From Bacteroidia bacterium (lineage in GTDB: Bacteria > Bacteroidota > Bacteroidia > B-17B0 > Aurantibacillaceae): a stretch of 64,000 bases of DNA. Shown here one piece after another: positions 26,384 to 63,020 of the stretch. The position numbers and the translations under genes are program-made. Each line of letters starts with the position of its first letter. Position 1 is the first letter of the stretch. The stretch spans positions 47,224 through 111,223 of the forward strand of contig BPGX01000009.1 of the NCBI GenBank assembly GCA_026003255.1, read 5' to 3'. A model generated the notes under the pieces. The model was not told the origin of the DNA and ran no database searches. It was given only the letters and a program-made list of their open reading frames with translations.

Positions 26384-27841
26384 TTAGTTGAATATTTCTT
26401 CGTTAATTCCGAAAAAGTTAGAGAAGTTAATGGCATTGATATTTTCTAATTTTGTTGTAACAGTCACGTCTTGAGCGAATTTTTTAGGGAAAGAAAATAC
26501 AGCGTCTTTGTTATAGTAATTTTCTAACAAGCGCTCTCTATTTTGACTATCAGAAGATTGAAGAGTATACAGAACGTAATTTTTGGTAGAATTTAAATCA
26601 AATAAATACATTTGTGTTAGTAGAGTTTCAACAAGGTAAGATTTAGCAACATTAGTAGCTAATTCTTCTAATTGAACTGAGGTATCAAATGTGTTGGGTA
26701 AAATGTTTTTCAGGATATTATTTTCTATTTGTTTGATAATTTCTTGTTTAAAGTAATCAATAGTAAAATATTTACGGTCGTCTTCTTTTACATAGTTGTT
26801 ATACAATTTGGTTACAAAATCTTCTGGTAGTTCTATTTGAATTAGATTATTAATGAAAGCATTACCGCGTTTAATATTTTCGTTGCCACTAAAATAATCT
26901 GCTACAATGTCTGCCACTTCAAATAATTTAGTATATAAAATATCCTGATTAATTTCATCTTCATCTTTAAGACCAAAAGCCATTTTAATTCTATCGTTAT
27001 TCAGGTGGGAGGATATTTTCTTGTATTGCTGAATGTCTTTAATAGTAATGTTTAAAGTAGCAACGTTGTTTTCTTTTCCTTTTTTAAGAAAATCTAGTAC
27101 ACCTAATTTTTTGTCTGGAAAATTTTTTTCAAGAATTGTTATCCATTTATCAATTTCTAAGTTATAAGTTGAGTTTTTCTGAAGTGTAGTGGGTAGTAAT
27201 TCATTTAATCCATACGATTGGTATTGCAAAGGATGAAGTACTAATGGCATTGTGGATTCTTTCTTTTTTTGTTCCTCTTCTGATTCAGCGGTAGAAGGCA
27301 GTTCAAGCTCTGTAGTAATGATAAACAATTCTTCATTTTGAACATTTATGCTTTCGGCTGGGTTTTCGTTGAGAAAATTAAAAAGTGTAATGATGTCCGA
27401 AAATATTTTCTTTTGTCCTTCAGTAAATCCGTATTTCACAAATTCAACTGCAGCATTTTTTACATCAATATCTACTTGTGGTTCTAATAGTATTTCTATG
27501 CCTATTTTTTTGTCGGTACCATTATCTTCGATTACTCCAGTTGTTTCAAAGTCATATACATAATAGAGAGGTTTTTGTACCTGACTTTTTAATATGTCAT
27601 TTGTTTTTTCTTTGAGTAAATGTTCAAAACCTTCAAAAAAAGCCGTGTTATTGTATTTCTTTTTAATTATCGTTAATGGTGCTTTCCCGGGTCTGAATCC
27701 AGGAAGTTCAATGTTTTTTTGAATTTTCTTAAGGTATTTTTCTCTTTCAGATTCTAATTCTGCCGAAGATAAAACAATTTCTGTTTTAATAATTTCAGGG
27801 CTTACAACTTTTTTTTCTGATGCTATTGTTGCATTACTCAT
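26384..27841 (-). CDS. tig: Trigger factor (ribosome-associated chaperone), divergent form without evident PPIase domain
   Basis: 485 aa. The ribosome-binding tail signature GFRPGKAP is intact in IELPGFRPGKAPLTIIKKKY near residue 47, with a normal preceding segment (SAELESEREKYLKKIQK). The middle part, where the FKBP-type peptidyl-prolyl isomerase domain normally sits, reads NVQNEELFIITTELELPSTAESEEEQ and shows no FKBP motif. The C-terminal half (from about 290) looks like the helical chaperone arms. It probably binds nascent chains at L23. A TAAATTTG element lies 28 bp upstream. The convergent terminator is shared with the LysM gene. Confidence 0.85.
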   Translation of the reverse strand: MSNATIASEKKVVSPEIIKTEIVLSSAELESEREKYLKKIQKNIELPGFRPGKAPLTIIKKKYNNTAFFEGFEHLLKEKTNDILKSQVQKPLYYVYDFETTGVIEDNGTDKKIGIEILLEPQVDIDVKNAAVEFVKYGFTEGQKKIFSDIITLFNFLNENPAESINVQNEELFIITTELELPSTAESEEEQKKKESTMPLVLHPLQYQSYGLNELLPTTLQKNSTYNLEIDKWITILEKNFPDKKLGVLDFLKKGKENNVATLNITIKDIQQYKKISSHLNNDRIKMAFGLKDEDEINQDILYTKLFEVADIVADYFSGNENIKRGNAFINNLIQIELPEDFVTKLYNNYVKEDDRKYFTIDYFKQEIIKQIENNILKNILPNTFDTSVQLEELATNVAKSYLVETLLTQMYLFDLNSTKNYVLYTLQSSDSQNRERLLENYYNKDAVFSFPKKFAQDVTVTTKLENINAINFSNFFGINEEIFN

Positions 27842-27876: not shown

Positions 27877-27908
27877 CAATTAAAATAAAACTAACAATAG
27901 TTTTTTTA

Positions 27909-28103
27909 CCCAAATTATGCAATATAAATTAAAATATTCAAAAGAGATTGCTTTGGATGCTTTGCATCCTCGCAATGACGGCATTGTTCTTTATTCTTAC
28001 AACTACCCTTCCACCTGTGGAACGGTGAAAAAAAATTTCTTAAAGTTAGCAGTAATTGACAATGCACAACATTTAAGAAACGCTTAATAAATAATTTGGG
28101 TTT
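27909..28103. repeat. Dispersed ~195-bp repeat with inverted ends, copy 1
   Basis: The left end CCCAAATTATGCA and right end TAAATAATTTGGG are inverted relatives. The interior has TCAAAAGAGATTGCTTTGG, GCAATGACG, then CAACTACCCTTCCAC and GTGGAACGG as a small inverted pair. A diverged relative with the same order of blocks lies at 60036-60254. The 68-aa ORF 27915..28121 falls inside it and is not a gene; RHCEDAKHPKQSL is a translation of the repeat. Confidence 0.65.
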
Positions 28104-28128
28104 AATAAGGATAAAAAGCAAGAGAAAA

Positions 28129-30123
28129 TTATTGTATCAAAAATTTTTCATTGACTAAAATCTCACCAGATAAATTTTTAATAATCAAAAAGTATAACCC
28201 TTTTGGTAAAGTTGATACATTGATTTGTTCATAATTGTTAGTGGATGTTTTATGTAATACTATTTGTCCTAACACATTACGAATTTCATAGAATTTGTTC
28301 TGATAATCATTCGTTTCGATATTTAATACTTCATTGGTAGGATTAGGGAAGATATTAATGGCTAATTTATTGGAAATTCCTTGAACATCTAATGTGTTGT
28401 CTTTTGTAGGTCCGATAGTTTTATTGATTAGCCAATTATTGGGGTCTACCTGGATGCCTGTTACATTACCATTGATAGTAAGTGTATAAGTTTCAGTTGG
28501 ATTAGAATGCATCACACGAATAATGGTATCTCCGCCTGTGCTACGAATGAGTTTGTACTCAATCGGTGTTATGAAAAGCGGAACAGAGGAAGGTTTGGAA
28601 GTGGTTTGAGTAGATTGAATAATGAGCGTATTTCCAAAATAGTTCCATTTTACATTGAAGGTAGGATAACCTTCACCGAAGTACCACTGGTTGAAAAATT
28701 GAGTGAGATTTTGTCCGGTATATGCTTCAAAACTTGCTTTGAAATCCATTGCAGTTGCTGTACTGAATTTATAGGTGTTTAAGAAGTTTCTTAAACCACC
28801 AAAAAATAGTGAGTCGTTGTTTGTTACAAATCGTAAGGTATGAATGATGGCGCCGCCTTTATCATAAGAAAGACGACTATCAAAAATTCTGTTATCATCA
28901 AGTGTGTCTTGTCCTGTAAAATAAATGCTTCCGCCGGGCTGACTCATAATGTTGTTATGCACGCTGTTCAAATTAGACATAAAATTTGTTGGGTCAAGGT
29001 ATTGATTGACCAGATGTTCTGTATAAGAAGCAAAACCTTCGTTAATCCAAATATCTCCCCATGTTTTGCAGGTAACCAGGTCGCCCCACCATTGATGGCC
29101 AAGTTCGTGTGCATCTATCATAAAATCAAAAAATCCAATAGTAGTCATGGTTTGATGTTCCATTCCGCCCCCAATAGGTGCCATAGCGTGTCCGTATTTT
29201 TCTTTGTAAAAAGGATACATGCCGTACATATTGCATAAAAATTCTATAGTGGGTTTGATTTTATTTAGTTCAACTTTTTGAGTGTTGTTAAAATATGTGC
29301 TATTATATGCGTTATCGTAAATGTAATTCAGAATTAAGATGGAATCGTTAGGAAGATATTGAGGTTTAGCATAAAGTATATAAGGTTTATATTTGGCAAT
29401 TGCTACAGAAATTAAATAATAATCAATAGGGTAATGGGTCTTCCATTCGTATCTTTTTTTGTTACCGATTGTTACTATGTTTGTCAATACTCCATTAGAA
29501 CCAACCATGTTGGTAGAGTCGGTAGTTACAAATATCCACGCGCTATCAATTTTATCCCTTAAATCTTGTTTACATGGCCACCAATGATAAGCACCGCGTG
29601 TTTCACTTAAGCTCCATGTTACCTGATTGCCCCAGGAAGGAGAGGTGCCGTTACTAAAACCATTGCCTAATGCCCCTGTGATAGAAGGTGCTGTTCCATG
29701 ATAATAGATAAAAACATCCGCAAGGTTGTTTTGACTGATTGGTGATGATATTTTGATTTTTACTAAACTATCTATTCTTGAAATATTTGTTTCTTTAATG
29801 TTATTTACATAAACAGAGTCAATGGTAAAATTTTGATGCAATTCAAATGCAAACGTATCTAATACATTGCTTGTAACTTTAGCGATGGTTCGGACAAATC
29901 CCGAAATGTTTTTATTGGTTCTCTCCAGATTTAGGTTTAAATGATGAAATTTAACATCATAGTTATTCATTAGGTTAGAGCTTGATGCTACCACTTTCAA
30001 ATATGTGCTTTTAGTGCTTGCGGATTTTTGGGTTATTTTGGATTGAGCACAAAAATGTTGATGTTGTGAATGCGCTTGAAAAAGCATTGAACTGACTATT
30101 AAGAGGAATGAATAACGTAACAT
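28129..30123 (-). CDS. Secreted M1-family metallopeptidase with T9SS sorting domain
   Basis: Zinc aminopeptidase-like protein of 664 aa exported by the type IX system. Signal peptide MLRYSFLLIVSSMLFQAHSQ. The substrate/amino-terminus motif is GGGMEHQTMTT. The zinc site HELGHQWWGD near residue 336, followed by NEGFASYTEH, gives the third ligand (HExxH-18-E) with the expected spacing. The C-terminal 75 residues (IFPNPTNEVLNIET ... GLYFLIIKNLSGE) are a type A T9SS sorting domain, so the enzyme is secreted or on the surface. Length is shorter than a full four-domain M1 enzyme, in line with other Bacteroidota secreted forms. TAGTTTTG lies 18 bp upstream. Confidence 0.92.
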   Translation of the reverse strand: MLRYSFLLIVSSMLFQAHSQHQHFCAQSKITQKSASTKSTYLKVVASSSNLMNNYDVKFHHLNLNLERTNKNISGFVRTIAKVTSNVLDTFAFELHQNFTIDSVYVNNIKETNISRIDSLVKIKISSPISQNNLADVFIYYHGTAPSITGALGNGFSNGTSPSWGNQVTWSLSETRGAYHWWPCKQDLRDKIDSAWIFVTTDSTNMVGSNGVLTNIVTIGNKKRYEWKTHYPIDYYLISVAIAKYKPYILYAKPQYLPNDSILILNYIYDNAYNSTYFNNTQKVELNKIKPTIEFLCNMYGMYPFYKEKYGHAMAPIGGGMEHQTMTTIGFFDFMIDAHELGHQWWGDLVTCKTWGDIWINEGFASYTEHLVNQYLDPTNFMSNLNSVHNNIMSQPGGSIYFTGQDTLDDNRIFDSRLSYDKGGAIIHTLRFVTNNDSLFFGGLRNFLNTYKFSTATAMDFKASFEAYTGQNLTQFFNQWYFGEGYPTFNVKWNYFGNTLIIQSTQTTSKPSSVPLFITPIEYKLIRSTGGDTIIRVMHSNPTETYTLTINGNVTGIQVDPNNWLINKTIGPTKDNTLDVQGISNKLAINIFPNPTNEVLNIETNDYQNKFYEIRNVLGQIVLHKTSTNNYEQINVSTLPKGLYFLIIKNLSGEILVNEKFLIQ

Positions 30124-60035: not shown

Positions 60036-60254
60036 TCCAAAATTTATGTATTAGAAATTGGAATTTTTTCAAAGGAGATTGTTTCACTTCGTTTGCAATG
60101 ACGTCTTTTTTCTTCATTCTCATCAACTACCCTTCCACACTGCTATAAAAAATAAAAAAAAAGAGTGGAAGGGTGAAAATAAAAAATGAACGGAGAAATG
60201 CATCAATAAAGAGAAATTCGACACCTGCGAAGTGTCAAATGCATAATTTGGGTT
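60036..60254. repeat. Dispersed ~200-bp repeat with inverted ends, copy 2
   Basis: Same order of blocks as 27909-28103: a CCAAAATTTATGTATT-like left end, TTCAAAGGAGATTGTTTCAC, GCAATGACG, CAACTACCCTTCCAC with GTGGAAGGGTG as inverted pair, and a right end GCATAATTTGGG. The middle is longer than in copy 1. No coding capacity. Confidence 0.65.
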
Positions 60255-60483
60255 TATAGAACGTGGTTAGTTTCAGATTAAAAATAGATTTTCACGGATT
60301 ACGGATTTTTTGATGTGTGGTATTGAAAGTTTTTGTGTAAATTTGCAAACACAGTATGTTTGTTGGAATTTTAAATATATTTCTATTCAGAGTAATTCCT
60401 AGATAATCCTTTTTTTGTGTGATATAATACTTTTCGGGTCTTATCATTCATTAAAATTTTTAAATACATTAAAATTTTTAAAT
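60255..60483 (+). other. Leader region of the dab operon
   Basis: Contains CACGGATTACGGATTTTT (CAGATT-like reiteration), a candidate -7 element TAAATTTG at 60338-60345, and a perfect 18-bp tandem repeat at 60449-60484. If the box is used the mRNA leader is about 130 nt, long for this genome. Confidence 0.4.
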
Positions 60484-60484: not shown

Positions 60485-63020
60485 TGTTTATTCATACTAC
60501 TTTTGACAAGTCAAAAGTACTACATCATTTAAAGCATTTTCTTCCATCGCAAAGCCCATTTAAAAGAATTTTGTACATCATAACCTCTTGCATTTTTTTC
60601 AACATTATTCCTTTCATGAAGCCAATCATCTGGCCTCTAAAGTTTTTGGCTATAAAAACATATCCCAATATCTTTGAATACAGAAAATGGTTCCATGAAG
60701 GGAAAATAGACGAAAATATCATTCGCGAAACCATTATTCAACATAAAGGTCAGGAAAATCTGGATGAATATTTTTTTTCGGTTACTTATATGACAACGTT
60801 GATATTTCCTTTGAAGGAAGATTAGGAAGAATCATGCATTTATGGAAAGATTATTACCAAATCAACATCAGCAAATACGTTCAGCCCCAAATTGTTCCGG
60901 ATCATCAGCAATTATTTAGACCAGGGAATTAGTATTGTGGAAGTTCCCCATATAAAGATGGTGGCTTACTGGATAATGTTCGATACTTTGAACAACAGTC
61001 GCTTATATCCTCCTTTTTTGCTTAAGAATGGTCGTGCAAGGCAATGGCTTTTGAATAATAGTGAAGAACTGCAACTGGAATACCTATTAGAATTGCTTGT
61101 TGGAAAAGAAGAATGGTTTGAAGAATATCTGTTTGATGTATCATTTGAACACCCCGGGCTGGAGTGGTATGGTCAGTGTGATTGAAGACCATCCTGAATA
61201 TCTGATAAAACCAAGAAAAATTTCTCTGGAGGAATTTTTTAATACTGGAATTACTTTTTTCAAATTGACTATCTGGATTATAAAATTACATTCTTGGAAA
61301 GCTTTATCAGTTGTCACCTCTATGCCTCAACAGCATTTGTTTGATCAACCTGAAAAAAGATATTCACTTTGAACTATTGCACTTATGGCAGGAAGCTTAC
61401 GAATGGACGTATTATTACAAAATATTAAATGGAATAAAACAAAATCTCATTTCAAAATCTGACTCTGAACAACAAGCTAAAACTCCCGAATTTCAAACCA
61501 TACATTGCATTGACGATCGTGAAGAATCTTTCCGGAGATATATTGAATTATTAGCTCCGAATAGTAAAACCTATTCAACAGCCGGATTCTTCAATATTGA
61601 CGCATATTATCAACCGCAGCATAGCCATTTCAAAATGAAAATCGCTCCTGCTCCCGCTAAACCCAAGCACGTCATTAAAGAAATTATCAATACCGTACAT
61701 TATGATGAACATACAGATATACAATTAGAAGCACGACAAGAAAGTAATATCTCCGGATGGTTAATGTCGCAAACTATTGGTTTTTGGTCTGCCATTCGTT
61801 TATTTAAATACCTGTTTAATCCTGATAAAAATCCGGTTGCTATCTCTTCCGAAGACCATACGCATCCGGAAGCATCCCTGCAATGTGATTACACTTCAAG
61901 TGAAGGCGAATTAAAATATGGCTTTACGCTTGAAGATGCCGCTGACAGAACAGAGATATTATTAAAAAGCATCGGTCTTACGTCTCATTTCGCTCCACTT
62001 GTCTATATCATTTCTCACGGTGCAGGAAGCACGAACAATCCTTATTATGCTGCTTATGACTGTGGCGCCTGCTCAGGAAAACCGGGATCTGTAAATGCCA
62101 GAGCACTTAGTTATTTTTTGAACCGAACTGATATTAGAAAAATACTCATGAATCGTGGAATAAATATCCCTGAAACAACAGTGTTTATTCCTTGTTTACA
62201 CAATACAACCACGGATGAATTAGTGTATTATGATATTGAAAAATTAAATCCTTCTCAAAAAGAACTTTTTAAGAAACATCAAAACATTTTCAAATCAGCA
62301 CTCGAATACAATGCCAAAGAAAGAGCCAGAAGATTCGCCAACTTCAACATTAAACATCTGTCTAAAGAAGAAATTCATAAGAAAATCAAACAACGGCAGT
62401 ATTCCATTTTTGAGCCAAGACCGGAATACAACCATGCCACAAATGCTGTGTGCATAGTCGGAAATCTAAGTTTAACACGTAATTTATTTTTAGACCGAAG
62501 GGCGTTTTTACAGTCGTATGATTATAAGATGGACCCGGATGGAAAATTATTACTTGGACTGATGCGGGCACTTTCTCCGGTGTGCGGTGGTATTAATTTA
62601 GAATATTATTATTCCAGAACAGATAATCAAAAATTAGGTTCTGGTTCAAAATTACCTCATAATGTATTTGGTTTAATAAATGTAGCTAATGGGGCAGAAG
62701 GTGATTTGCGAATCGGCTTACCTTCTCAAATGGTTGAGATTCACGACCCGGTTCGACTGTTGATGGTCATTGAACAAAAACCGGACATTGTTCTACAAGT
62801 TTTAGAATCCGACTCTCATGTGTTAGAATGGTATAAGAACGAATGGATACATTTAGTTTGTTTAAATCCTGAAAGTAAAAAATACTATGTATATCGCGAT
62901 GAAAAATTTTTAGAACTGACTACGTTGAAAGAACAGCATTTAAAGAAAATTTCATTAGCAGAACTTGAAAATATTTTTGAAAAAGAATCTGAAAATCTTG
63001 ATGTTTATCAAATCATCTGA
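60484..63020 (+). CDS. dabA: DabA-type inorganic-carbon transporter subunit (DUF2309), 5' third frameshifted as read
   Basis: Peripheral subunit of the DAB bicarbonate/CO2 uptake system, carbonic-anhydrase-like. The repaired protein would be about 845 aa. MFIHTTFDKSKVLHHLKHFLPSQSPF starts it. The frame is then broken several times (60.57, 60.8-60.95, 61.18-61.37 kb), with family words such as HPGWSGMVSVIEDHPEYL in the shifted frames. From 61311 to 63020 it is intact. The zinc site has TIHCIDDREESFRRYIE (Cys and Asp), IISHGAGSTNNPYYAAYDCGACSG (His and Cys) and HNTTTDELVYYD. It is directly followed (2 bp) by dabB. Assignment by motif; activity not proven here. Confidence 0.85.

Follow-up and report, generated by a model that had tools for sequence, protein, structure and literature searches.

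Two short intergenic elements in a Bacteroidia genome are very probably MITEs of an IS1380-family transposase and carry a CGTC-REP-like hairpin

The window (the whole stretch of 64,000 nucleotides analysed here) has a coding density of 0.83 and contains two related short elements, both at gene boundaries, as the original prediction had placed them. Copy 1 is flanked by a trigger-factor-like gene (26384-27841, minus strand), which encodes the N-terminal domain of trigger factor, and by a peptidase M1 gene (28129-30123, minus strand), while copy 2 lies upstream of a frameshifted dabA-like gene. In line with the claim that neither element encodes a protein, copy 1 has no convincing open reading frame (ORF), and a mechanically called 90-aa ORF that overlaps the left part of copy 2 is probably spurious. 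In the dabA-like gene that follows copy 2 (inorganic carbon transporter subunit, 60892-63020), the coding sequence is divided between frames, with profile positions 112-201 in the ORF 60892-61185 and 250-747 in the ORF 61311-63020; this is a frameshift that is either real or an assembly error. The boundaries of the two copies were set by cutting at CCC/CCA...GGG, and their features are as follows.

27904-27908: left putative target-site duplication of copy 1, TTTTA
27909-28100, plus strand: copy 1, very probable miniature transposon of family A, CCC...GGG, 192 bp
27909-27921, plus strand: left terminal inverted repeat of copy 1, CCCAAATTATGCA
27944-27980, plus strand: CGTC-REP-like hairpin unit of copy 1, GAGATTGCTTTGGATGCTTTGCATCCTCGCAATGACG
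28000-28026, plus strand: second hairpin of copy 1, CAACTACCCTTCCACCTGTGGAACGGT, for which the family consensus is CCCTTCCAC/GTGGAAGGG
28088-28100, minus strand: right terminal inverted repeat of copy 1, reverse complement CCCAAATTATTTA
28101-28105: right putative target-site duplication of copy 1, TTTAA
60032-60036 and 60253-60257: left and right putative target-site duplications of copy 2, TTTAT
60037-60252, plus strand: copy 2, very probable miniature transposon of family A, diverged, 216 bp
60037-60054, plus strand: left terminal inverted repeat of copy 2, CCAAAATTTATGTATTAG
60075-60103, plus strand: CGTC-REP-like unit of copy 2, with the shortest tip, GAGATTGTTTCACTTCGTTTGCAATGACG
60124-60176, plus strand: second hairpin of copy 2, with a long A-rich loop, CAACTACCCTTCCAC ... 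GTGGAAGGGTG
60236-60252, minus strand: right terminal inverted repeat of copy 2, CAAATGCATAATTTGGG

All the sequence blocks named in the original prediction are present in both gaps, in the order and orientation claimed. The outer ends, described there as inverted relatives, are true inverted repeats in copy 1 (CCCAAATTATGCA and reverse complement CCCAAATTATTTA) and in copy 2 (CCAAAATTTATGTATTAG and reverse complement CCCAAATTATGCATTTG), where the left end differs from the consensus by a one-base indel. The sequences flanking copy 1 match at four of five positions. Local alignment of the two copies gave a score of 70 (1000 shuffles: mean 18.9, maximum 29), and against the family consensus copy 1 scored 247 (shuffle maximum 33) and copy 2 scored 72 (shuffle maximum 34). 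The CCCTTCCAC hairpin is unlike in the two copies, with a short loop in copy 1 and a long A-rich loop in copy 2.

We searched the genome that contains the window (3.05 Mb in 31 contigs, 89.6% complete) and detected at least about 80 elements with terminal inverted repeats (TIRs) of the type CCCAAATTATGCATTAG. A consensus search for family A (about 195 bp) gave 66 matches at about 40 loci, most of them spanning the whole length; this count is a lower bound, as 40 of 123 candidates were scored and copy 2 of the window was missed. Pairing of ends revealed a second family, B (core of about 285 bp), whose interior carries AACCACAATGAACACAAAG...CTTTGTGGTT and which was found at 37 loci at E<1e-20. 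Searching for the end alone (AAACCCAAATTATGCA, at most two mismatches, 3.05 Mb) returned 41 forward and 49 reverse matches, 90 in all, compared with three for the reversed control. One odd member of 42 bp (G000:C1:283803-283844) consists of little besides the two ends. Since families A and B and the odd members differ inside, their common feature is the ends and not the interior. The two outcomes that had been named as fatal to a dispersed element, namely a lack of further copies and an alignment in which only the ATTGC...GCAATGACG core is shared, are thus contradicted by the family-A matches and their mostly full length. The core is, in addition, an independent repeat that occurs outside the elements.

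The flanks of the elements carry the signature of transposition. When the bases to the left of CCC were compared with those to the right of GGG in 43 facing end pairs, 22 showed perfect 5-bp duplications (shuffled mean 4.1; maximum 11 in 2000 shuffles), and in the same 43 pairs no excess was seen at widths of 2-4 or 6-9 bp, the excess being confined to width 5. The duplications are AT-rich, with TTAAA, TTTAA, TTTAT and ATAAA as typical examples. About half of them are imperfect, as is expected after decay. At C7:52600, a family-B element is nested within the right terminus of a family-A copy and has the duplication ATGAA. When its flanks are joined, the family-A sequence CCTAATGAATAATTTGGG reappears, which provides an in-genome empty site for one event. 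None of the 43 elements lies in an ORF, which bears out the expected restriction to intergenic places, and joining the flanks yielded no ORF of at least 100 aa at any of the 43 sites. Neighbouring genes are in tandem (21), convergent (14) or divergent (7) orientation. Hairpins and an intergenic position would also suit an immobile structured RNA, a cis-regulatory element or attenuator between two genes; a search of copy 1 against Rfam gave no match, dozens of copies stand beside unrelated genes, and the copies, the duplications and the nested insertion refute this reading, which we regard as scarcely credible.

A complete insertion sequence with the same ends was found in a relative of another genus of the same bacterial family (G057, L160:832-2232). 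This element of 1401 bp is bounded by CCCAAATTATGCATTAG and CTAATGCATAATCTGGG, has TTGAA on both sides as a perfect 5-bp duplication, and encodes between its ends a single ORF of 441 aa, a transposase that matches the NCBIfam IS1380 model (E=8.7e-80, above the family cut-off) and Pfam DDE_Tnp_1_4 (E=2.2e-53). Single matching ends adjoin IS1380 transposase fragments in three more genomes; in G011, the end lies about 70 bp upstream of an IS1380-type fragment. Elements with the same ends occur in other genera of the bacterial family (G015, G011 and G004). G015, the metagenome-assembled genome KLAP24, has about 40 ends belonging to a uniform 166-bp miniature element at which its contigs break. A scan of species genomes with the extended end gave 63 stretches, nearly all from Bacteroidota and including Thermophagus xiamenensis and Flavobacterium columnare. 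Among the 54 distinct pairs from relatives (the scan stretches together with the G015, G011 and G004 loci), 32 had perfect 5-bp duplications (shuffled 10.0, maximum 18). Most of these elements are miniature, at 136-266 bp, and among those with a perfect duplication the length goes down to 39 bp. Minimal elements with little besides two inverted ends, L221:5405-5443 (39 bp) and L200:3015-3080 (66 bp), both have perfect 5-bp duplications and are very short for a transposable unit. At one mismatch, no such TIRs were detected in the genus mates.

The elements are thus short, without a transposase gene, bounded by TIRs and constant-length duplications, and present in many dispersed copies outside genes, and they have an autonomous counterpart with the same ends in a relative and an empty site at one nested event. 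We conclude with high confidence that both window copies are non-autonomous miniature transposons (MITEs) moved by an IS1380-family transposase. That this class of transposase acted in the present genome is suggested by the matching ends and the duplication length. Such an enzyme would recognise the 13-17 bp ends (CCCAAATTATGCATTAG) and move the elements into AT-rich intergenic sites (TTWAA/TTTAT-like), with duplication of 5 bp.

The transposase with matching ends that the original prediction had called for was therefore found in the relative, and no IS1380 transposase gene with matching ends is present in this assembly. Its only DDE_Tnp_1_4 match is to a gene of the IS1634 family that sits at the end of a contig (C22). 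IS1634 elements make 5-6 bp duplications, and a transposase of another family, such as this one, might in principle have moved the MITEs. No TIR-like sequence bounds the C22 gene in the available flank, of which only the left side could be fully checked as the right end runs off the contig, and the TIRs that match at both ends belong to the IS1380 element; we consider an IS1634 or other driver most improbable. The IS1380-type driver may either lie in the missing 10% or so of the genome or have been lost, leaving the MITEs stranded. As family-A backbones differ by about 26% on average, an old expansion is favoured, and the family may be old and inactive in this genome.

The core of family A, GAGATTGC...GCAATGACG, is a separate CGTC-tagged hairpin resembling repetitive extragenic palindromes (REPs). 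Read on the other strand, it consists of CGTC, an ATTGC stem, a variable distal stem, GCAAT and CTC; in the GAGATTGCTTTGGATGCTTTGCATCCTCGCAATGACG unit of copy 1, the reverse strand has an unpaired CGTC, the stem ATTGC/GCAAT and the distal stem GGATGC/GCATCC. On folding, four of five unit types formed a hairpin at -8 to -12 kcal/mol with CGTC unpaired, and the hairpin did not form in the unit with the shortest tip, as in copy 2. The genome has 39 exact units, of which about 27 have recognisable ends on either side and 12 belong to clusters that lack them (a split counted by hand). Of the roughly 80 elements, about half contain such a hairpin. A genus mate (G002) has 48 exact units and no matching TIRs, which shows that the unit is independent of the MITE. 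In G002, the units (for example, C33:3582-3675 and C69:83847-83939) often stand head to head about 25 bp apart, and their tip types are mostly unlike those of this genome. The unit shows the unpaired CGTC followed by a stem starting with AT that defines the CGTC-REP superfamily. The families CGTC-1 to CGTC-4 have a stem of 8-9 bp, a loop of 4-5 nt and the tail CCA, whereas the present unit has a stem of 5+6 (up to 5+8) bp with an internal loop, a loop of 3-4 nt and the tail CTC. Because stem, loop and tail differ, we filed it as CGTC-REP-like and not as one of the four families.

The architecture of the core and the units that stand outside TIR elements, here and in G002, raise the alternative that the copies are extragenic palindromes of the REP/BIME type, spread by a REP-associated tyrosine transposase (RAYT) or by recombination, and that their similar ends are the foot of a larger hairpin. 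However, the whole element has TIRs and 5-bp duplications, which REPs lack, and family B has the same TIRs and duplications without the core. Furthermore, no tyrosine transposase flanked by units was found: the only Y1 gene of this genome is IS200-like with no unit nearby, and no RAYT gene was found in the unit-rich G002. The duplications and the matching insertion sequence rule this account out for the whole element, where we judge it very unlikely, and it is right for the core only. The two options left side by side by the original prediction, a MITE or an intergenic palindromic element, are thus each partly true, the first for the whole element and the second for its core. On this reading, a CGTC-REP-like hairpin was probably taken up between the ends of an IS1380-type MITE and multiplied together with it.

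The tip of this captured hairpin appears to be exchanged between copies. In 26 family-A copies, each distal stem belongs to one of three recurrent types (GGAAGC, GGATGC and GGGCGT). Tip type shows no association with backbone relatedness (0.258 within and 0.262 between types, P=0.26), and nearest neighbours agree in type in 10 of 26 cases, with 8.4 expected by chance. Tips of the same type differ by 9%, against 26% for the backbones of those pairs; the 9% figure is partly circular, because types were defined by tip similarity, a problem that does not affect the lack of association. The free-standing clusters of this genome contain these tip types as well. The independence of tip type from the backbone suggests exchange, and the simplest reading is that tips were replaced between copies within the genome after MITE insertion, with gene conversion or an unknown activity that processes hairpins as the possible means. 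If selection acted on the hairpin alone, it would preserve the pairing and not the same sequence. A broader proposal, which we put forward tentatively and think less probable than not, is that CGTC-type REPs spread through a genome as passengers inside IS1380-driven MITEs and that their tips are then exchanged, one copy at a time, for others from a common genome-specific pool, independently of the backbone. If true, this would be a two-layer parasite with active hairpin exchange by an unknown enzyme, and with concerted evolution of tips between constant arms.

The IS1380 family includes IS1247, with inverted repeats of 16/13 and direct repeats of 5 (PMC3281130), and is known to mobilise DNA whose bounding ends are recognised imperfectly (TMos, PMC9330008). 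Members such as IS1247, ISPme1 and ISEcp1 have in common with the present system a TIR of about 16 bp, 5-bp direct repeats and a DDE_Tnp_1_4 transposase, but the window elements are only 0.2 kb long without a transposase, and the matching autonomous copy is in another genus. CGTC-tagged REPs were described by Di Nocera et al. (2013) and include dRS3 of Neisseria and RPE-4/RPE-6 of Rickettsia; that study reports no transposase dedicated to them, and their means of spread is recorded as open (PMC3733652). They share with the present unit the unpaired CGTC at one end, the stem starting with AT, head-to-head pairs, an intergenic position, occurrence in Bacteroidetes and the lack of a RAYT. The present unit differs in being the cargo of a TIR element, with an internal loop, recurrent interchangeable tips and the tail CTC instead of CCA. 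In the parts of the sources consulted, MITECca01 of Cardinium (PMC9769881) and BrickBuilt of Porphyromonas gingivalis (PMC4596501) are likewise intergenic MITEs of Bacteroidota, and BrickBuilt also carries repeat cargo, a minisatellite; those parts report for each a single genus or species, and neither an IS1380 link nor CGTC-REP cargo.

Literature searches with the TIR sequence gave no match, and those with the core sequence led to no publication about a bacterial repeat. IS1380-type MITEs are an ordinary kind of element, well supported here and new as far as the open literature searched shows; what stands out is the CGTC-REP-like cargo, together with the exchange that it seems to undergo. 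The assignment would name the transposase family behind a MITE group of many Bacteroidota, isolates such as T. xiamenensis and F. columnare included, and an IS1380-type parent for MITEs is a link absent from a recent review of prokaryotic MITEs (PMC10969869). It would also give at least some CGTC-tagged REPs a concrete means of transport, and, with dozens of near-homologous copies in a single genome, it allows tests of how REP hairpins can alter their sequence while remaining paired.

At several places in the genome (G000 C2:230313-230828, C2:584434-584928, C1:70848-71224 and C1:476070-476558), A and B elements follow one another with little beyond a single 5-bp AT-rich sequence between them, which suggests that one element inserted into the duplication made by another. 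Inside family-B elements (for example, G000 C1:476092-476376) there is a AACCACAGAGAACACAAAG...CTTTGTGGTT repeat that is also found inside MITEs of other Bacteroidota (L205, L225, L230 and L238); it may be a further independent module that was captured between these ends.
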